From: Gammaproteobacteria bacterium
GTDB taxonomy: Bacteria; Pseudomonadota; Gammaproteobacteria; HK1
DNA length: 64,000 nucleotides
Direction of reading: 5' to 3'
NCBI GenBank assembly: GCA_021773635.1
Contig: JAJFJV010000017.1
Coordinates: forward strand, 124,001-188,000
Numbering within the stretch: the first letter of the stretch is position 1; each line of letters begins with the position of its first letter. The position numbers and the translations under genes are program-made. Shown piece after piece: positions 21,070 to 33,920 of this stretch. The notes beneath the pieces are model-generated. The model was not told the DNA's origin. It ran no database searches and was given only the letters and a program-made list of their open reading frames with translations.

Positions 21070-21145
21070 CGGATGACTTTCAGTAAGTTGCGGATCGTTA
21101 GTTATATTCCGTCTCAGCTTGGACGTGAAGGGGAGGAGCTCGACG

Positions 21146-22465
21146 ATGGCCATTGGTCAACAATGGAAAACGATTTTTTTGGCGGCGCTACTGGCCACCG
21201 CAAGTAACGTCCAGGCAAAAGGCGATGCACTCAAACAGGCCCGGGGTCTGCTTGATGGTGGAAATGCCCAGGGCGCCTATGAACTGCTGCTTCCGCTTCA
21301 GTCCGCCCGAGCCGGAGAAGTCGCCTACGATTATTTGCTCGGCCTCGCGGCGCTGGATGCCGGACAGCCAGGCATCGCCTCCTTTGCCCTGGAACGAGTC
21401 CTTATAGTCGACCCCGATCATGCTGGCGCGAAGGTCGCCACCGCCCGTGCCTACATCGCCATGCGCAAGCTCGATCAGGCTCGCGAACTACTCACTCAGG
21501 TCGCCCAAAGCAAAGCACCCCAGGCAACCCGAAGCGAGGCACAACGACAACTGGCGCGTCTTAGCTGGGCCCGCAATGATATTCGCGGTCATGTTGCCCT
21601 CACCCTGGGTTATGACAGTAATGCAACTTCCGCCACCGATGAGCGTAATCAGGCCATTCCCGCTCAGGGCGGCGCTATTCGACTCCTCAGCATTGGCGAG
21701 GAAGACGATGTGTTTTCCAGCCTTTCGGGCCGGATTCTACTCCGCCGCCCCCTTGGAGATGACTTGCACTTGCTTGCCCGTGGCAGCGCCTTTCATCGCC
21801 TTAACAGTACCGAGGATGACTTTGACACCGGCTCCCTCAATGCCGCCGTCGGTCTGCAATACCGGGATGATGACAACATCTACTCTGGTGAGATCGAGGG
21901 CGATCACTACCGCTTCGATTATGAAACCCTGCGCAACAGCCTGGGTGTGCTCGGCCGCTGGCAGCATGTGGTGGCACCCGGAGTCACAGCGGGCCTGTAT
22001 CTACGCTACACCAATCTGGATTACAGCCCGGCAGGGCAGCAGTTACGCGATGGAGACCGGGTGACTCTCGGGGCTACCTACGTGACTTCTCTCGACAGTG
22101 AGCGTCCCGCTTCCATCTATGCCGGTGCCTACGGTGGCAAGGAGTCGAAGGACGCCTCCGGGGCCGCCTATCTCGAACACAGCTTCTGGGGTCTGCGCGC
22201 CGGCGGCAATCTGGAACTCATTCCCCACCTGACGGCTTATGCATCGGGCTCCCTGGAGGAACGGGACTACGACGGCGCGGACCCAAGCTTCCTCAAAAAG
22301 CGGGATGATTCCTTTCTTAAACTGGCTCTGGGGCTGGACTACAGGCCGTGGAAAAAGTGGCATGTGATTCCAGAATTCCGCTATATCCGGAACAATTCCA
22401 ATATCCCGGTGACCGACTTTGACAGGTACATCTATACGGTGACCCTGCGCCGAAATTTTGATTAG
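21146..22465 (+). CDS. Outer-membrane protein with TPR-like N-terminus and SLAM/DUF560-type beta-barrel
   Basis: 439 residues from the ATG at 21146, with AGGAG 7 bases upstream. A signal peptide (to about residue 24, ...TASNVQA) is followed by two to three TPR-like helical pairs (LLDGGNAQGAYELL, YLLGLAALDAGQPGIASFALERVL). From about residue 155 the sequence alternates short beta strands starting at LTLGYDSNATSA and ends in an aromatic-rich strand with terminal ...LRRNFD, the outer-membrane barrel signature. This is the layout of surface lipoprotein assembly modifiers. Its client is unknown; the next gene, 12 bases away, is a FecR-domain protein. Confidence 0.7.
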   Translation: MAIGQQWKTIFLAALLATASNVQAKGDALKQARGLLDGGNAQGAYELLLPLQSARAGEVAYDYLLGLAALDAGQPGIASFALERVLIVDPDHAGAKVATARAYIAMRKLDQARELLTQVAQSKAPQATRSEAQRQLARLSWARNDIRGHVALTLGYDSNATSATDERNQAIPAQGGAIRLLSIGEEDDVFSSLSGRILLRRPLGDDLHLLARGSAFHRLNSTEDDFDTGSLNAAVGLQYRDDDNIYSGEIEGDHYRFDYETLRNSLGVLGRWQHVVAPGVTAGLYLRYTNLDYSPAGQQLRDGDRVTLGATYVTSLDSERPASIYAGAYGGKESKDASGAAYLEHSFWGLRAGGNLELIPHLTAYASGSLEERDYDGADPSFLKKRDDSFLKLALGLDYRPWKKWHVIPEFRYIRNNSNIPVTDFDRYIYTVTLRRNFD

Positions 22466-22477
22466 GGGATTAAGCTG

Positions 22478-23227
22478 ATGTCCGCAAAGAAGCGTATAGG
22501 TCGAGCCTCACAAACACTCCTCGCCACCGCCATCGCCGCCGCCCTGCCGCTCAGTGCCAACGCGGCCGCAGGGCGTGTGGATTTCGCCTTTGGGAAGGTT
22601 CAGGCCACCACAAAAGACGGCCAGACCCGAGACCTCAAACGCGGGTCGAGCGTTGATAGTGGAGACACTATCAAGACCCAGCGCGGTATTGCCCATCTGC
22701 GCTTTAGCGACGGCTCATACACCGCACTCAAGTCCAATAGTACTTTTCGCATTGATGAATACGCTTTCGAGGAAAAAAAGGCAGCAGCGGGAAAAAGCTT
22801 CTTCAGCATCCTGAAGGGTGGCTTTCGCAGCATCACCGGGCTTATTGGTCGTAACAATCCACGTGGCTACCGCCTCAGAACACCCGTCGCTACCATCGGC
22901 ATCCGCGGCACACACCCGGAAGTAGAGCAAGACGCCGATGGCAACTGGGTTGTCCGGGCGATCAACGACAGCGACGAGAATGATGGTCCGGTGTTGGTGG
23001 ATATAGACGGATCCTCCTGGTATCTGCTGGAGCCGGGCCAGTACTTCATCCTCGACGAGAATGGCAACGATATGGGTGGCAGTTTTCTGGTTCGAACGGA
23101 AGGGCGATTTCAGATCGAGGAGGGTTATCCCGCCCGCAAGAACACCACCGAGGACAGCTCCGGATTTACTTCGGAGGGCTGGGAAATCATTCCGCCAGAG
23201 GTCGTCATACCCTGCTGTGTGGAATAG
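22478..23227 (+). CDS. FecR-domain periplasmic protein
   Basis: 249 residues with a cleavable signal peptide (...LPLSANAAA, about residue 31). The FecR domain (about 32-150) shows GDTIKTQRGIAHLRFSDGSYTALKSNS, then LRTPVATIGIRGTH. The rest has acidic beta-rich sequence and ends VIPCCVE, with a vicinal Cys pair. No membrane helix other than the signal is seen, so unlike sigma-regulator FecR it probably works as a secreted or periplasmic structural protein. It is co-transcribed with the outer-membrane gene upstream (GGGGATTAAGCTG ribosome region). Confidence 0.75.
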   Translation: MSAKKRIGRASQTLLATAIAAALPLSANAAAGRVDFAFGKVQATTKDGQTRDLKRGSSVDSGDTIKTQRGIAHLRFSDGSYTALKSNSTFRIDEYAFEEKKAAAGKSFFSILKGGFRSITGLIGRNNPRGYRLRTPVATIGIRGTHPEVEQDADGNWVVRAINDSDENDGPVLVDIDGSSWYLLEPGQYFILDENGNDMGGSFLVRTEGRFQIEEGYPARKNTTEDSSGFTSEGWEIIPPEVVIPCCVE

Positions 23228-23328
23228 CAGTAATTTTATCCCCCCGGTATTCATAACAGCCCGCAATTGAATCCGGTGGGCATTTATCGCCCTCAACAAC
23301 CTCCCGCTCATTTCATCGCCACCTTTCC

Positions 23329-24774
23329 TTGAGCGCCCCCCTAACCCGGAAGACCGAGCAAACGGCGCAATCCGCCTGGCGGCTGAGAACGGGTACACCT
23401 CGGGTGGACTGGTCCAGGGAACTGATCCGTAACGAATTCCTCGAAACTGCCAACCGGCGCGCGTGGCAAGCGGAGATACTGGGCGATCTGATGGCCTTCG
23501 CTACCACGCAAGTGCCCTGGTATCGCCGGCAGTTCCGCCAACTTGGCATTGATGGCAAAGATATACAGTGCGTGGAGGACTTGGCCCAACTGCCCGTCCT
23601 GACGCGCGAGGAATTGCAGGCAAACGGTGATCAACTGCTTGCAGAGGGGCTGCCGGACGGCCACCGCATCGACCGCAAAGTTTCCACATCCGGCTCCACC
23701 GGTCAGCCGGTAGAAGTCTGGCATAGCGAGCACAGCATTATGATGGTGGGCATCATGACCCAACGGGAATTACGCTGGCAGCGCTTCGACCCTGCCGGCA
23801 CCCTCGCCATGATCCGCAGCCTGCACGAGCTGGAAAATCCTCACGACAAGCAAACGCAGCCACTGGACCACAGCTACCACTATCCGCGCTGGTTTAACGT
23901 AGGCAATCACTTTCAGACAGGCCCTGGCATCGGCTTTGCCGATACCAATCCCGTCGACAAACAGGTGGCTTGGCTGGACCGGCTGGATCCCGACTATCTC
24001 ATCGCCCAGGCTACCCGGCTGGAGCAACTGGCGCTGGCCTATCAGCATCACGCTCCGCCAGCCAGCCTGCGCGCCCTGCGTGCCTATGCACAACAGCTCA
24101 CGCCGCAGATGCAGGAACGGATCGAGACCGTATTCGGGGTGCCGGTATACCAGAGCTATGCCCTGAACGAGGCGGGTCCCGTGGCCGGACAATGCCGGGA
24201 GGGCGGCCGCCTCCATGTCCATATGGAAAACTGCCTGGTGGAGGTGCTGAATGCCAACGACAAGCCCTGTGGGCCCGGCGAAATCGGACGCATCATCGTC
24301 ACACCTCTGGCAAACGCCGCCATGCCGCTCATCCGCTACGATACAGGCGATCTTGGTGAGCTTGCGGTGGGACCGTGTCCCTGTGGACGTACCCTGCCCG
24401 CCTTCACCGCCATCCACGGACGCTACCGACGCCTTGCCCTGCAGCCCCGGGACAGCTGGGCTTACTGGATTGCCATCCAGCGTGCGCTTAGCCCCAGCCT
24501 TATTGCGGCAGAACTGCTGGCACCGATACGCCAATACCAGCTCCATCAGTACCGCAACCAGTCCTATGAATTACGCATCCGCGCCAGTGAAACTCTGAGC
24601 GACGCCTTTCACCACCACATACGAAAGTTCTGGGAACAGGCGACCGGGGAGCCAACCCACCCTTTAGCCATTGTGCAAATGGATGAAATTCCCTGGGGAC
24701 GCGCCCTGAAGTTCGAGAATTTCACTTCAGATTTCGTGCCGCCCCCGGACAACGAACCACTCACACGGTCATAA
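23329..24774 (+). CDS. CapK/PaaK-like adenylate-forming enzyme
   Basis: 481 residues from a TTG; the start is uncertain because no good ribosome site is seen. The ANL-family motifs are present: phosphate-binding STSGSTGQPVEV (119-130), YALNEAGPVA, and RYDTGDLGEL followed by CPCGRTLPAF, which resembles the zinc-containing CPCG stretch of phenylacetate-CoA ligases. The C-terminal domain ends IPWGRALKFENF with a candidate catalytic Lys. The family activates a carboxylic acid as acyl-AMP and usually transfers it to CoA. Relatives named CapK sit in polysaccharide clusters. It is convergent with, and overlaps by 6 bases, a GNAT-like gene in an island with an AurF-like oxygenase and a glycosyltransferase. 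Confidence 0.75.
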   Translation: MSAPLTRKTEQTAQSAWRLRTGTPRVDWSRELIRNEFLETANRRAWQAEILGDLMAFATTQVPWYRRQFRQLGIDGKDIQCVEDLAQLPVLTREELQANGDQLLAEGLPDGHRIDRKVSTSGSTGQPVEVWHSEHSIMMVGIMTQRELRWQRFDPAGTLAMIRSLHELENPHDKQTQPLDHSYHYPRWFNVGNHFQTGPGIGFADTNPVDKQVAWLDRLDPDYLIAQATRLEQLALAYQHHAPPASLRALRAYAQQLTPQMQERIETVFGVPVYQSYALNEAGPVAGQCREGGRLHVHMENCLVEVLNANDKPCGPGEIGRIIVTPLANAAMPLIRYDTGDLGELAVGPCPCGRTLPAFTAIHGRYRRLALQPRDSWAYWIAIQRALSPSLIAAELLAPIRQYQLHQYRNQSYELRIRASETLSDAFHHHIRKFWEQATGEPTHPLAIVQMDEIPWGRALKFENFTSDFVPPPDNEPLTRS

Positions 24775-25422
24775 GACCTCAGGAAGAGGCTGGCTGCCAG
24801 GCGGGTACTCCAGGTACCGGCTCCGTAGCCGTTCCCCGAATTTCCGCAGGCGGGCGGAGGGTGACCCTCGCCAGTGAAATGAGAATCCTGCTCCCAATCG
24901 CAAGCCGGTCAGCACATAAAGAGGCAGGCAGATTCCCAGCCCCATGCGTGCGTACAGGGTGGCAAAAGAGGGATATTCGTGTTCCTCCACACCCGCCTCA
25001 ATGGAGGGCCGTTCCAGCCGGACGGCCTCCCGCACCGCCAGCGCCGCCCCCAAACGATGTACAGCACCGCCTCGCAGGGACGGGTCAACCCATACATCAA
25101 AGATGAGCACGCCGTCGGCAGGAGCCGTAAGTGCTTTAAATATCCAGTCGATATAGATCGATCCGGTGCTTAGCCACAGGTGATAAACAATCTTGCCCGA
25201 CACCCGGTCCACCCCGATCAGGCAGCGGCTATGCGCGGCGTATCGCTGTCGCGCTACGGACGGGACAGCAGGCAATATAGAAGGATTTCTCAACCAGGCC
25301 TCGTGATCCACCCAATGCATCTCCACCCGCTCATCCCCGGTTGGCATCGGAGCAGGCTGCCGTTGCCCAAACCATGCCATTTCCCGCAAGTCACTACGAT
25401 AGATGAGCAGGCGCCGAATCAT
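24769..25422 (-). CDS. GNAT-like acyltransferase (tentative)
   Basis: About 217 residues from the ATG at 25422 (a GTG at 25428 is the alternative). The middle of the protein has IFDVWVDPSLRGGAVHRLGAALAVREA, resembling the V/DPSxRGxGxGxxL acetyl-CoA pyrophosphate loop of GNAT enzymes, and later GVEEHEYPSFATLYARMGL, resembling the C-terminal GNAT strand-helix where the N/S...F/Y...GF motif sits. The overall identity is weak. It starts 15 bases after the AurF-like gene, so it is the third gene of the island's minus-strand operon. Confidence 0.5.
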   Translation of the reverse strand: MIRRLLIYRSDLREMAWFGQRQPAPMPTGDERVEMHWVDHEAWLRNPSILPAVPSVARQRYAAHSRCLIGVDRVSGKIVYHLWLSTGSIYIDWIFKALTAPADGVLIFDVWVDPSLRGGAVHRLGAALAVREAVRLERPSIEAGVEEHEYPSFATLYARMGLGICLPLYVLTGLRLGAGFSFHWRGSPSARLRKFGERLRSRYLEYPPGSQPLPEVL

Positions 25423-25437
25423 ATGCACTGACCGTTT

Positions 25438-26394
25438 CTAGGACGCCCGTCGCAGCACGCGGCTCACGGCTCGATCCAGCATGGTGTATTGGCCACGGTT
25501 GCGCGTCGTTATGGGAACTGTCTTGCGGTCAAATAAATGCTCGAGATACGCCGGACCACGAGCCAGGGACGCCTCCGTGAGCAGTTCCGAAAAACGTCCA
25601 CGGAGTTCGGGAAAGTCTTTCACCAGATGTTTCAGAGATTGCTTCCATCCCCAGTCCACATCGTAATAAAAGGACATCAGACACTCCAAAGCCCAGGCGT
25701 TAAATCGCCGACGCCAGCCAGCCTGCTCCTTCACCAGCAGGGCCACGAGTAAAGAATCCAGATTACAGTGACGTGCCTCGTCACGGGCATGGAGAAAATG
25801 GATGCGGGCGAACAACGGATCCACGCTATCTCCAGCCTGTTTGTATTCGCGGTTGAGTACCAGGGTGTGTTCCTCCAGCACATTGAGAAACAACGTCCAG
25901 CCAGACAGCACGGTCGGAAATCTCCCCATCAGAAAGGCCAGGACACGGACCTTGGCCGGGGGCCGGAACAGGATATGCTGCGGGCGACGATAAAGCTCCG
26001 GACGCGCCCTGCTGGCCAGTTTCCAAAGCGCCGCGCTGTGGTCTACCTCGTCGGCAACAAAAGACTGGATAATGCGCATGATCCCCGGCTCCCGGGTGTC
26101 CGCAAGCAACATCCGTAGCGGTCGCAGCGCCAGCACATTCTCGATCCAGATAAACTGCTCGACCATCTGCAGGGCGTAATAGTGGTTGTAGCGCAGGCGT
26201 TGATCGTCGCTAAGGCCAGCGTAGCTGGGCGTTCCCCATAGCGGCACAAGGGTTTCAGGTATCCACGGAAGAGCAGGATCCGGGTACTCCCCGTCGGCTA
26301 TTGCGGCCGGATTCAGCCGCGGGGCCTTGAGCCGGGCAACCTCTACATCAATACGGTTTAACAAGTTCGCAGGAACTCTCCCACCACCCGTCAT
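25438..26394 (-). CDS. AurF-type diiron N-oxygenase-like protein
   Basis: 318 residues from an ATG with GGAGG 6 bases upstream. The metal pattern of AurF (p-aminobenzoate N-oxygenase) is visible: E116-x2-H119 in ADEVDH, an acidic residue at E174/E175 in NVLEEH, and H202-x3-E206-x2-H209 in LHARDEARH, with E79 or E85 as the first Glu. The spacing of the last triad is exactly that of AurF. Members oxidise arylamines or related substrates using O2. No redox partner is encoded next to it. The gene lies between a glycosyltransferase and a GNAT-like gene. Confidence 0.72.
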   Translation of the reverse strand: MTGGGRVPANLLNRIDVEVARLKAPRLNPAAIADGEYPDPALPWIPETLVPLWGTPSYAGLSDDQRLRYNHYYALQMVEQFIWIENVLALRPLRMLLADTREPGIMRIIQSFVADEVDHSAALWKLASRARPELYRRPQHILFRPPAKVRVLAFLMGRFPTVLSGWTLFLNVLEEHTLVLNREYKQAGDSVDPLFARIHFLHARDEARHCNLDSLLVALLVKEQAGWRRRFNAWALECLMSFYYDVDWGWKQSLKHLVKDFPELRGRFSELLTEASLARGPAYLEHLFDRKTVPITTRNRGQYTMLDRAVSRVLRRAS

Positions 26395-26424
26395 CTCACA
26401 CCTCCGAAAGCTTACAGCTGCATG

Positions 26425-27720
26425 TTAATCCAGCGTGTGGGAGTCTGTCTTGCCAGCTTCATCTGACAGTTGTCGGCGCAGCGCCAAATAGGCAGAGACC
26501 TGGTGTTGCTGAGAGAAGCGTGCGGCGTGTTTTTTCCCGGCAGCACCCATGCGTACTGCAAGCCCCGGGTTATCCAAAACCTTGGCCATTGCCCCTGCCA
26601 ACGCCACCGGGTCATCCACGGGCACGAGGATAGCCGAATTTTTACTGACGGCCTCGCGGGCACTGAGCGGATGATCGGTGCTGACCACGGCAAGGCCCGC
26701 AGCCTGTGCCTCCAGTAGCGAACGTGAAAGCACCTCCCAACGGGAAGCCAGCACATACAGACTGGCACGTTTTAAAAGTGGAAATGGGTCCGCAATCCAA
26801 TCGAGAAATTTCACTTGCTGGCAAATCCCCAGGCGGGAAGCCTGGGCACGAAGGCGAGGTAACTCCGGTCCGTCCCCGCATAACAGCAAATAAGCGGGTC
26901 GCTGCCTGAGCAGCAAGGCGAAGGCCTCCAGCAATACATCCTGCCCCTTCTCGGGATAGTAACGAGCCAGATTGAGCACCAGTGGAACGGTAGAGTCTGG
27001 CGGCCAGTCAAGGGAGTCCTGCCCCTCCAGCCGCACCTTCATGTCCTCCAGATCCAGACTGTTGTATTGGATGGCGATCCGCTCCGACGGTATACGCTGC
27101 GTCCCGACCAGATCATCAGCATGTGCCTGGGAGATAGCGATAACCTGGCTCGCGCGCCGGATGCCGCGCACGGTCAGCCATTGATAGGGACCATAGGTAT
27201 GGCGTCGAATCCAGCCATGAATGTATACGATGCAGGAAATTCCCATTGCCTGGCATACCAGAGCGGTGGCACCCGAGCCATAGGTGTGGCTAACCACCAG
27301 ATCGGGACGAAGTTCGCGCAGTCGCTGTGGCATTTTTTTCAGCACGCGATAGTGCAGACGCAACTGCCAGTTAGCCATCCACAACCAGTGACGAAGACGA
27401 AACGGCAGGCCTCGGGCCAACAGCTGCCAGACCCGCCACGTTCCCTCCTCATCCGGGGCGAGTTCAGAGTCGAGCATCTCTAGCTCCATTTCAGCCGGTA
27501 ATTCGGCTCTCATAGCCCCCGGAGCTTTTACCAGCAGCAGCGTACGCCGAACCTCCGGCTCCTGTTTCACCAGCCCCTGCAACAGGGTCAGCATACTTCG
27601 GTCCGCGCCATAGCCCGCCAGGTTGTAGCAAAAATGCACCTCGTGCCGAATACCCCCTTGTCGCTGGTTGACGGGCCTGAATGTGCTCAATTCCATATCC
27701 ACGCCATCATTGGCAGGCAT
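26425..27720 (-). CDS. Glycosyltransferase, GT4-type
   Basis: About 431 residues from the ATG at 27720; ATG 27696 is possible and the frame stays open to 27918. GT-B fold: acceptor half with VHFCYNLAGYGADRSMLTLL and VVSHTYGSGATALV; donor half with LVLNLARYYPEKGQDVLLEAF, LLCGDGPELPRL, then a VLASRWEVLSRSLLEAQAAGLAVVST motif with the GT4 EX7E position (E at SRWE and EAQ). It would transfer a sugar from a nucleotide donor to a lipid or glycan. It heads the minus-strand part of the island and is divergent from the Lon-like gene. Confidence 0.85.
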   Translation of the reverse strand: MPANDGVDMELSTFRPVNQRQGGIRHEVHFCYNLAGYGADRSMLTLLQGLVKQEPEVRRTLLLVKAPGAMRAELPAEMELEMLDSELAPDEEGTWRVWQLLARGLPFRLRHWLWMANWQLRLHYRVLKKMPQRLRELRPDLVVSHTYGSGATALVCQAMGISCIVYIHGWIRRHTYGPYQWLTVRGIRRASQVIAISQAHADDLVGTQRIPSERIAIQYNSLDLEDMKVRLEGQDSLDWPPDSTVPLVLNLARYYPEKGQDVLLEAFALLLRQRPAYLLLCGDGPELPRLRAQASRLGICQQVKFLDWIADPFPLLKRASLYVLASRWEVLSRSLLEAQAAGLAVVSTDHPLSAREAVSKNSAILVPVDDPVALAGAMAKVLDNPGLAVRMGAAGKKHAARFSQQHQVSAYLALRRQLSDEAGKTDSHTLD

Positions 27721-30369: not shown

Positions 30370-31902
30370 CTAGAAATCCATTCTGAGGGTCACGGAATAG
30401 ACATCACTGTCCACGTTATCCCGCCCCCGGGTCGTTATCCATCCTGCCGTACCCGATATCCCCTGCTTGCTGAACATCCGCAACCCGAGCCCGAACTGCA
30501 TTTCATCCCGATCATCGGAGGGCACCGGGACCCCGGCACCCACCTTCGTCTCGGTGGTCACAAAATCCCGTACCAGGGCAACGCTCGCATAGGGCTCCCA
30601 TTCCCCAAGGGAGTATGCGAGCTCTCCGCCGATGCGCCCCTGTCCAAGTTTGACGGTAGATCGGGGATTTAGCAGCCCATTGCTTTCGGTAAAGGATTGC
30701 AACTCGTCCTTGGCATAGAGATAGCCAAGGTTTCCAGACACTATCCAGTTACCGAAGCCGGTGACTCCGTTCAGATTCCCGGCGGCAAACAGCCGACGGG
30801 AATCCTGCTTTCCGCTGATCACCACGCCGGCCAGGGTGCGGGTCTGTTTGATGTTCGAGCTGGTATAGCCCAGCGTCAGGTCCGCACTGATGGCATCGTT
30901 GAATAAATAGCCCAGATAGGGGGCTACGGTATAACCGTGCACCTTCTGCGACCCGATATTGAAAAATGTGGTGACATCCTGTTTCTCATAGGAAAGTGCA
31001 ACACCAATGAGTAAATCATTCGGGGTGAGGTAATCCACGCCCGTCACCACGTTGTCCATGTCAGCGGAAAAAGCCGTCGAGACAAAATTATTGCGAATAT
31101 CCATGCGTCCATAACTGACCCAGGCGCCAAAATTTCCCGGCGCATCGCCCGCCGACAGGCCGGTCCCCGTTTCCAGCAGCAGATTACCGGAAAGCGGCGA
31201 CTTGAATCCGGGCCCGTGCTGCTTTCCCGACAGCACGGAACCGATCCGGTTACTCATGGACACGGCAATCTGGGCCAATCCCTGTTTAAGGATCTCGGTG
31301 GTGGTCGTTGAACTGCTCGCTCGCTCTGCAGGTACCTCGGAAACCACTTCCACGCCAGGAACCGGTGGCGGTACGGTCGCACCGGTAAAATCACCCGTGG
31401 CCAAGGTATCAAACCACCACGTGGCATCCAGTTCATCAACAGTTGCACCGGGGTGAATATCGTCGATACGCAAGGCACCGAAATGACCGGTGGTGGTGTG
31501 CTTCCAAACAATAAATTCTCCCACCCCAGGTACGCCATGGGCGGAACAAGCAGGGTCACAGTGGGGATTAGGCAAATTTATGTTGGTATAAGTAAGCGCC
31601 CCGGCATTGGTAATCTGGGTAACATCTGATACCCCGGAGGCAAAGGCAACATCACTGTCACCAGTGGAATTGCTACCGTAGAACCAGCCTCGGTCAGCAT
31701 TGTTGATGGACCACCAGAGTGTGACATGGTTCGTACCATCACCGATGGTCGTGAGCGGGCCACTCTCCGGCCAATTGCTAATAGAACCACTGATGATGGC
31801 GGCATTAAGGCTCGCGGATGAGAACAACAGGGAAGCACAGATCACGCGCCAGACACGTCCGCCCGCCATAGCCCCCAACCAGTCCTTTATAAAAGTATGC
31901 AC
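30370..31902 (-). CDS. Autotransporter with short passenger
   Basis: 510 residues from a GTG with a GGGGAGGGGA ribosome site. A signal peptide (to about residue 35, ...SASLNA) is followed by a passenger of about 165 residues with FIVWKHTTTGHFGALRIDDI, a Pro/Val then Ser/Thr linker, and an alpha-helix (EILKQGLAQIAVSMSNRIGSVL) that would sit in the pore. The last 270 residues form an autotransporter-type barrel ending YSVTLRMDF, with the terminal Phe recognised by the BAM complex. The passenger is short and has no beta-helix repeats. Convergent with the Lon-like gene, 19 bases away. Confidence 0.8.
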   Translation of the reverse strand: MHTFIKDWLGAMAGGRVWRVICASLLFSSASLNAAIISGSISNWPESGPLTTIGDGTNHVTLWWSINNADRGWFYGSNSTGDSDVAFASGVSDVTQITNAGALTYTNINLPNPHCDPACSAHGVPGVGEFIVWKHTTTGHFGALRIDDIHPGATVDELDATWWFDTLATGDFTGATVPPPVPGVEVVSEVPAERASSSTTTTEILKQGLAQIAVSMSNRIGSVLSGKQHGPGFKSPLSGNLLLETGTGLSAGDAPGNFGAWVSYGRMDIRNNFVSTAFSADMDNVVTGVDYLTPNDLLIGVALSYEKQDVTTFFNIGSQKVHGYTVAPYLGYLFNDAISADLTLGYTSSNIKQTRTLAGVVISGKQDSRRLFAAGNLNGVTGFGNWIVSGNLGYLYAKDELQSFTESNGLLNPRSTVKLGQGRIGGELAYSLGEWEPYASVALVRDFVTTETKVGAGVPVPSDDRDEMQFGLGLRMFSKQGISGTAGWITTRGRDNVDSDVYSVTLRMDF

Positions 31903-32039: not shown

Positions 32040-33920
32040 TCACTTGGCCAAAGCCTCGATAGCAGGTTGAAATCCTTGGTCCGCAGCACGCCGATACCAG
32101 CGCCGTGCGGCCTCCCGATCCCGGGCAACCCCGCGCCCATTGTCGAGCAAAACCGCGAGATTGTGTTGAGCCCGCGCAAAACCGCTCTGCGCCGCGGCCC
32201 GAAAAAGTCGCGCTGCTTCAGCGTAATCCTGCTGTACACCACGGCCCGTGGTGTACAGGGCCCCCAGCCAGTACTGCGCCTCCGGGCTACCCTTTTTCGC
32301 CACTTTGGCGAGTAAGCGCGCCGCCTTGCGGTAATCCTTTTGCTCCGCGGCCTTGCGGGCCTCGCGCAGGTGTTTTCGACTCTTTTTATCCAGATTCGCC
32401 TGGCGGCGTGGCTCCGTCGACTCAACCGTCGAGGGCGCACGGGCTGCCGCCCATCGCTTACGGGCTACGCGCAGGCGCTGGTCATCCGGTGCCACCAGTG
32501 CGGCACGCCGAAGATAGTCATCCGCCCGCCCGAGTTCACCTTTATTAACAGCATCCTTTGCCAGACCGAGATAGGTATTCACTATCTTTTGCAGCCCATC
32601 TTGTGCCACCTGGTTTTCAGGCTCCCGCCCCAGTACCTCACGGTATTTTTTCCAGGCATTGTTGCCCGCCGGTGTGGTCAGACGGAGGGCGTCGATATCA
32701 CGATCCGCGCCAGCAAGCAGGGCCGATATACTTTGCTGCGCCGGACGGACCGTTTCCGGGGCGCCGGAGATGACAACCTCCTCTTTTTTTGCCGTCTCCC
32801 TTTGCTTTTTTCCCAGAGAACCCAAGATCGCGAGAACCAGCAATGCCAGTGCAAACAGGCCGACCACCCGGGGCCAGCGACGCCGCTTTTTTGGAACGAC
32901 AGCAGTGGCCTCTGCATTCTCCAGAGCAGGAATTTCCTCCGTAGCTACCTCGGTCTGGCGCACGGTTTCTGCATCATGCGCCGACACGGGTGCCAACGGG
33001 ATCTCGCACCGCCCCGATAATTCAGCACGCCATAGTGCGATGGTCTGCGGGCGATCGCCCTCGCGGAAGGCAAGGCCGTGGTCGATAGCCATCAGCAGGG
33101 ACGCACTGTAAGCGCCTCCCGCCGCATCCCGTGCCGCCACCAGGGGATCCCGCCCGATATCGAGAATCACCTTGCTGCGATCGACGGCAGACAAGGGGGC
33201 GGTCCCGGTCACCGCCCGGTACAAGGTCGCCGCAAGGGCATAGATATCCGTCCAGGGCCCCTGGCTGGTGCTCGAAGAGGCGTATTGTTCTATGGGGGCA
33301 TAACCTGGCGACACCATGGTGGTAAGCGTCTGGGTATGGACTCCCAGGGCCTGACGAGCCGCGCCAAAATCCAGCAATACCGGACTGCCATCGTCGTGAA
33401 TATAAATATTGGCAGGCTTGATATCACGATGGATGAAGCCCGCTTCATGCACCTGCTCCAGGCCATCGAGCAACCGCAGCACCATGGTTAACAACTGTTT
33501 TTCCGGAATCGTCTGTCGGCCAGCCAGTACTTCGGCAAGGGATTTCCCCTGCTCGTAGCGCATCACCATATAGGCGGTCTGATTGGCCTCGAAAACCGAG
33601 TGGACACGCACGATAGCGGGGTGGTCGAAGCGTGCCAGGGTCTGCCCTTCGGTGATGAAGCGCTCCAGACCCCAGGAGAAATCCTCGCGATGACTCTCGG
33701 TGAGGGGAACGACCGTGGCATCCTGCCCACGGGTTGCAAAGGCGGTGGCGAGAAACTCCTTGATGGCCACCCGAGTATCGAGATTGCTATCCCGAGCAAG
33801 GTAGGTGATACCAAAACCACCCTGCCCAAGGACCCGCTCAAGGCGATACCAGAGCAGCTCAAAGCCGGACGGCAAAGCGAGTTGGGGTGTGGTCGCGCCG
33901 GGGATCTCGTGCTCCCCCAT
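32040..33920 (-). CDS. Membrane Ser/Thr protein kinase with C-terminal Sel1 repeats
   Basis: 626 residues. Kinase domain about 25-285: LGQGGFGITYLA loop, VAIKEF with Lys54, HRDIKPANI with catalytic Asp166, and LLDFGAAR with Asp184, all intact. A basic stretch and one membrane helix (RWPRVVGLFALALLVLAILGSL, about 346-367) follow, then a coiled TPR-like region and Sel1 repeats at the C-terminus (SPEAQYWLGALYTTGRGV, ARAQHNLAVLLDNGRGV). The kinase is therefore cytoplasmic and the repeats periplasmic. It starts 18 bases after the CigR-like gene, so the two are probably one operon. Confidence 0.9.
   Translation of the reverse strand: MGEHEIPGATTPQLALPSGFELLWYRLERVLGQGGFGITYLARDSNLDTRVAIKEFLATAFATRGQDATVVPLTESHREDFSWGLERFITEGQTLARFDHPAIVRVHSVFEANQTAYMVMRYEQGKSLAEVLAGRQTIPEKQLLTMVLRLLDGLEQVHEAGFIHRDIKPANIYIHDDGSPVLLDFGAARQALGVHTQTLTTMVSPGYAPIEQYASSSTSQGPWTDIYALAATLYRAVTGTAPLSAVDRSKVILDIGRDPLVAARDAAGGAYSASLLMAIDHGLAFREGDRPQTIALWRAELSGRCEIPLAPVSAHDAETVRQTEVATEEIPALENAEATAVVPKKRRRWPRVVGLFALALLVLAILGSLGKKQRETAKKEEVVISGAPETVRPAQQSISALLAGADRDIDALRLTTPAGNNAWKKYREVLGREPENQVAQDGLQKIVNTYLGLAKDAVNKGELGRADDYLRRAALVAPDDQRLRVARKRWAAARAPSTVESTEPRRQANLDKKSRKHLREARKAAEQKDYRKAARLLAKVAKKGSPEAQYWLGALYTTGRGVQQDYAEAARLFRAAAQSGFARAQHNLAVLLDNGRGVARDREAARRWYRRAADQGFQPAIEALAK

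Follow-up and report, generated by a model that had tools for sequence, protein, structure and literature searches.

Four accessory genes lie together in one slot among core genes of a gammaproteobacterial genome of 2.5 Mb (46 contigs), and they raise the question of whether they act jointly and, if so, on what kind of molecule. A preliminary description of the 64,000-nucleotide stretch analysed here (hereafter, the window) had proposed that the set could make or modify a glycoconjugate with an N-oxidised group. We examined the arrangement of the locus, the identity of each gene product and the recurrence of the set in other genomes, and then weighed the possible functions against known systems.

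Gene arrangement and genomic setting

The four open reading frames were confirmed between position 23329 and about position 27720 of the window. The plus strand encodes a CapK/PaaK-like adenylate-forming enzyme (23329..24774; 481 aa from a TTG, the start codon being uncertain), and the minus strand encodes an orphan protein with a GNAT-like acetyl-CoA-loop motif (24769..25428, with a likely ATG start at 25422), an AurF-family diiron oxygenase (25438..26394; 318 aa) and a GT4 glycosyltransferase (26425..~27720). On the minus strand, the GT4 and AurF-like genes are separated by 30 bases and the AurF-like and GNAT-like genes by 9, and gaps as short as these suggest a transcript of at least three genes; the three are probably transcribed together. 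The CapK-like gene is convergent with them, its last 6 bases being shared with the end of the GNAT-like gene, and since it lies on the opposite strand, it does not belong to their transcript. The adjacency described earlier thus stands as regards the positions and the minus-strand spacing, but not as a single operon.

The neighbouring genes are mostly core genes, as had been described, and include ispH, ileS, murJ, proB, obg and a cardiolipin synthase gene, together with genes for a polyprenyl synthetase and a Lon-type protease. The GC content of the four genes resembles that of the rest of the window, and this comparison gave no sign of a horizontal origin. Several other genes of the region were also observed. 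On the plus strand at 21119-23227, two genes 12 bases apart rank among the most conserved of the region; one encodes a TPR/beta-barrel protein that matches SlipAM, the other a protein with a FecR domain. The CapK-like gene starts 101 bases 3′ of this pair, past a terminator-like hairpin at 23212-23230, found in a search in which the number of hairpins was not above chance. The minus strand also encodes a protein of 626 aa that has a PknB-like Ser/Thr kinase domain and scores under every equivalog cut-off (32040-33920), and a 510-aa protein that reads as autotransporter beta-barrel-like (30370-31902), for which tblastn gave a match in G001 and none in the searched stretch of G002. The latter two genomes, the other species of the genus, are MAGs (isolates OFTM50 and OFTM67); a literature search on OFTM50 found no paper.

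Enzyme classes and the AurF-type metal site

The CapK-like protein matched the Pfam AMP-binding family PF00501 over its cut-off (E 4.9e-9), and it matched NCBIfam PaaK-type families with E-values down to 2e-40, yet below the family cut-offs. A profile search of the PDB returned PaaK ligases (best E 1.7e-27), so the class assigned earlier was upheld by its best relatives in both collections. The ANL motifs TSGSTGQP and RYDTGDL and the residue K461 are invariant in the three species, among which the protein is 81-82% identical with a dN/dS of 0.12-0.13. No other protein of the genome matches its profile at E<=1e-5. The possibility of a true phenylacetate-CoA ligase equivalog was rejected, as the TIGR02155 score of 72.6 bits falls far short of the cut-off of 646.

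The GT4 assignment was likewise confirmed, with matches to PF00534 (E 8.5e-31) and PF13439 (E 2.9e-17) and an EX7E motif (E329, E337) that is invariant in the genus. The open frame of this gene reaches 27918 and so runs into the first part of the divergent Lon-type gene; the protein conserved among the species starts within the 27720 version, near 27660-27720. Identity within the genus is 81-84% and dN/dS is 0.13-0.22. The genome contains 13 GT4-family matches at scattered places.

The AurF-like protein matched PF11583 above the cut-off (E 3.3e-16; 59.7 bits against 29.6). The preliminary description had pointed out E116xxH119 and H202xxxE206xxH209 with AurF spacing; this was correct, and E85 and E174 complete the full set of three histidines and four carboxylates. 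In a 12-sequence alignment of gammaproteobacterial homologues the invariant columns are few (L52, L61, E85, E116, H119, E174, H202, E206, A207, R208 and H209), and all seven ligands are among them. A single AurF-like sequence found no match in the PDB and the 12-sequence profile was required; this profile found crystallised AurF (3chh, 2jcd) with E ~3e-4. The seven ligands align with E101, E136/H139, E196 and H223/E227/H230 of AurF, in the numbering established for the family, some of which appears in PMC12101540. That paper names two second-shell aspartates of AurF, D135 and D226; they correspond to D115 and D205, both of which are invariant in the genus, and the D115 position is occupied by Glu in the other relatives of the alignment. 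The first ExxH motif reads DEVDH or DEKDH in the three species (DExxH). Because the seven ligands and both second-shell aspartates match AurF, the ligand set is complete and of AurF type. Such a ligand set does not fix the substrate. By this sequence comparison, N-oxidation by the protein is plausible, and its product may be an N-oxidised aryl or acyl compound. A structure prediction from three sequences reached a pLDDT of 41 and gave Foldseek matches at chance level only. The gene has a dN/dS of 0.16 (Nei-Gojobori).

The orphan protein contains V-x-P-x-x-R-G and, later, YxxMG, a succession that is GNAT-like. The label of GNAT-like protein did not gain a family model: in Pfam and NCBIfam no GNAT model matched at E<=1, the one match being a chance hit to FlpD, and a PDB search gave no credible relative. 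What remains is a weak profile match, since hhalign against 28 GNATs placed the acetyl-CoA-loop region at P 0.0025 with a probability of 12%, while the best of three controls reached P 0.011. Structure prediction with few relatives gave a pLDDT of 44 and Foldseek matches at chance level only. The assignment is therefore suggestive only. No homologue was detected outside the genus among 369 genomes of the class. Compared with G002, the gene shows 80% identity and a dN/dS of 0.21. In G001 (L009:10453-11074), a 35-bp frameshifting deletion lies just past the loop, and the sequence beyond it is still highly conserved; it may be a recent loss or an assembly fault.

Conservation within the genus and relatives beyond it

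The order of the island is identical in all three species of the genus (G000, G001 and G002), and the four genes are under purifying selection (dN/dS 0.12-0.22, Nei-Gojobori). The flanking genes have somewhat lower values (0.04-0.10) and are equally syntenic, so adjacency and co-conservation are weak evidence for a shared pathway. A contig scan, with genus-specific peptides as search patterns, recovered the island in the two other species of the genus only. No AurF match was obtained in the 14 other genomes of the family, and the island turned up nowhere else in that family. When an empty site was sought through the Lon-type gene, homologues in the family were 33-45% identical, and no other gene of the region stood beside the two that were read. 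Among viral contigs, phages and plasmids there was no close relative of the AurF-like or GNAT-like protein, plasmid AurF matches being weak (E 7e-4 or worse).

The genome sets searched further afield are samples and not a census. Of the 369 class genomes, 21 others carried AurF homologues, the nearest relatives being about 25% identical, and in 17 neighbourhoods read outside the genus none of these homologues had a CapK or GT4 relative beside it. Relatives of the CapK-like protein occurred in 15 other genomes at E<=1e-20 (398 phylum genomes), and an AurF-family match was present in two of the 17 CapK-bearing genomes, adjacent to CapK in neither. The search for the four-gene neighbourhood in other genomes, suggested earlier, thus found it conserved across the genus, but beyond that only single genes recur. 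This is the pattern that the preliminary description had set against its own pathway, and at this depth the reading of the four genes as one pathway was not supported.

The CapK relatives are about 30% identical or less and often lie in surface-polysaccharide or glycosyltransferase clusters of bacteria and archaea. Glycosyltransferases adjoin them in Methanosarcina and Methanohalobium plasmids, Deinococcus and Roseobacter; a gammaproteobacterial cluster (L075) combines CapK with several GT4s and an O-antigen ligase, two tandem GT4s precede the relative at L073, and glycosyltransferase genes lie near it at L101 and L102, in two genomes of the same bacterial family as the genus. Relatives also occur in unrelated settings (L070, where the gene adjoins threonine synthase, and L071). 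As a separate observation, at L101:2505-4891 a HemN-like radical-SAM gene overlaps a GT2 gene on the strand opposite to the CapK relative.

The nearest AurF homologues by score (L040, L041 and L010) lie near FA_desaturase genes and have neither a CapK nor a GT4 relative close by. The AurF-family and desaturase genes are close together at L041:6922-12269, L040:9673-12310 and L010:5748-10346, possibly as a separate operon type; a hexapeptide-like protein adjoins two of the three AurF loci, and the L041 locus also has two radical-SAM/B12 proteins.

Candidate functions and comparison with known systems

Our best reading, which we hold tentatively, is a genus-specific locus with a joint function in modifying either a glycoconjugate of the envelope or a small N-acyl molecule. 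The enzyme classes of three genes and the AurF-type ligand set are shown, and each reaction step that follows is inferred. The CapK/PaaK-like ligase would activate a carboxylic acid as an acyl-AMP or acyl-CoA, the GNAT-like protein could pass the acyl group to an amine carried by an amino sugar or amino acid, oxidation of the acylated nitrogen to a hydroxylamine or hydroxamate would fall to the AurF-type enzyme, in the manner proposed for LitN on an amide, and the GT4 enzyme would add a sugar. Oxidation of a carbon of the acyl chain by the AurF-type enzyme would be a less likely alternative. This mechanism, with N-oxidation, is preferred because of the parallel with the lipothrenin cluster. 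Because the GNAT-like gene is broken in G001, its step would be dispensable there if the deletion is real. The shared order in G000, G001 and G002, the purifying selection, the window-like GC content and the intact AurF site were counted for a joint function, as were the glycan clusters around CapK relatives, the solitary CapK of the genome and the LitN precedent. The syntenic flanks, the position of CapK on the other strand, the lack of a CapK or GT4 relative beside AurF in the 17 loci read outside the genus, the rarity of AurF-family matches in CapK-bearing genomes, the broken GNAT-like gene of G001 and the desaturases near the nearest AurF relatives were counted against it. The narrower proposal, in which the set builds or decorates a glycoconjugate of the cell surface and the AurF-type enzyme gives it a hydroxamate, hydroxylamine, nitroso or nitro group by N-oxidation, we regard as quite improbable, and a glycoconjugate N-oxidised by such an enzyme was not found as a pathway type in the literature searched.

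Equal in likelihood to a joint function is that the four are unrelated neighbours, individually useful accessory genes that by chance took up positions among the core genes of the genus's ancestor, with CapK and GT4 serving different glycan processes and the AurF-like protein an independent role. The recurrence of single genes alone beyond the genus, the convergent CapK, the synteny of the entire region in the genus and the 13 scattered GT4-family matches agree with this, but the 9- and 30-base gaps suggest a transcript of at least three genes, and one slot holds four accessory genes in all three species. Rather unlikely, in our view, is that the AurF-like protein is no N-oxygenase but works as a carbon oxidiser or desaturase-like enzyme on the acyl chain of a lipid or glycolipid. 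The FA_desaturase genes near its homologues, with the hexapeptide-like protein beside two of them, point that way, as does the C-H chemistry that CylC/NocO perform on an AurF-like fold (PMC12101540); however, the genus proteins join the desaturase-linked clade only weakly in the tree (85/58) at about 25% identity, and D115 and D205 match AurF whereas the desaturase-linked relatives have Glu at the D115 position. We give the lowest probability to a small diffusible natural product, for which the PaaK-like enzyme would activate an aryl or acyl acid, with N-acylation, N-oxidation and glycosylation to follow. PaaK-like ligases among the PDB relatives and the AurF-type enzymes known from natural-product clusters in the literature are consistent with it, but no gene for a PKS, an NRPS or a transporter was recognised next to the island, and several CapK relatives belong to polysaccharide loci with glycosyltransferases nearby.

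At present, the island is a conserved, genus-limited gene set whose members may plausibly be linked. Should its products act together, the reach of AurF-type chemistry would widen beyond small natural products to a glycan or lipid of the envelope, and a PaaK-like ligase of the polysaccharide-locus kind would gain a testable role.

Among known systems, the p-aminobenzoate N-oxygenase AurF belongs to the same family and aligns in its seven ligands and two second-shell aspartates; unlike AurF, the island has no aureothin-type PKS context. AurF-like enzymes also include carbon halogenases, and the dimetal halogenases CylC/NocO share the AurF-like fold with an ExxH...HxxDExxH ligand set (PMC12101540). 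These carry Gln at the AurF D135 position (QExxH) where the island protein has Asp (PMC12101540), and a CylC-type halogenase identity was set aside on this account. The PaaK/CapK-like 'phenylacetate--CoA ligase family' of polysaccharide loci belongs to the same profile family as the island CapK and often has glycosyltransferases as neighbours, but identity is at most about 30% and the loci showed no AurF-family gene; our literature search found no description of the reaction of these proteins. The desaturase-linked AurF relatives are nearest by score but lack CapK or GT4 nearby. A literature search for an AurF-like enzyme together with a glycosyltransferase found none. By analogy, the closest functional parallel found is the lipothrenin cluster, in which the AurF-like LitN and an acid-activating ligase contribute to the synthesis of an N-hydroxylated acyl amino acid, a lipid hydroxamate, LitN being proposed to N-oxidise the amide of the N-acyl amino acid (PMC10616846). 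That cluster lists FAAL, ACP, ThiF-type and DUF4873 genes and no glycosyltransferase (PMC10616846), whereas the island has a GT4; the likeness, drawn by description and not by sequence, lies in an AurF-like enzyme clustered with an acid-activating ligase.
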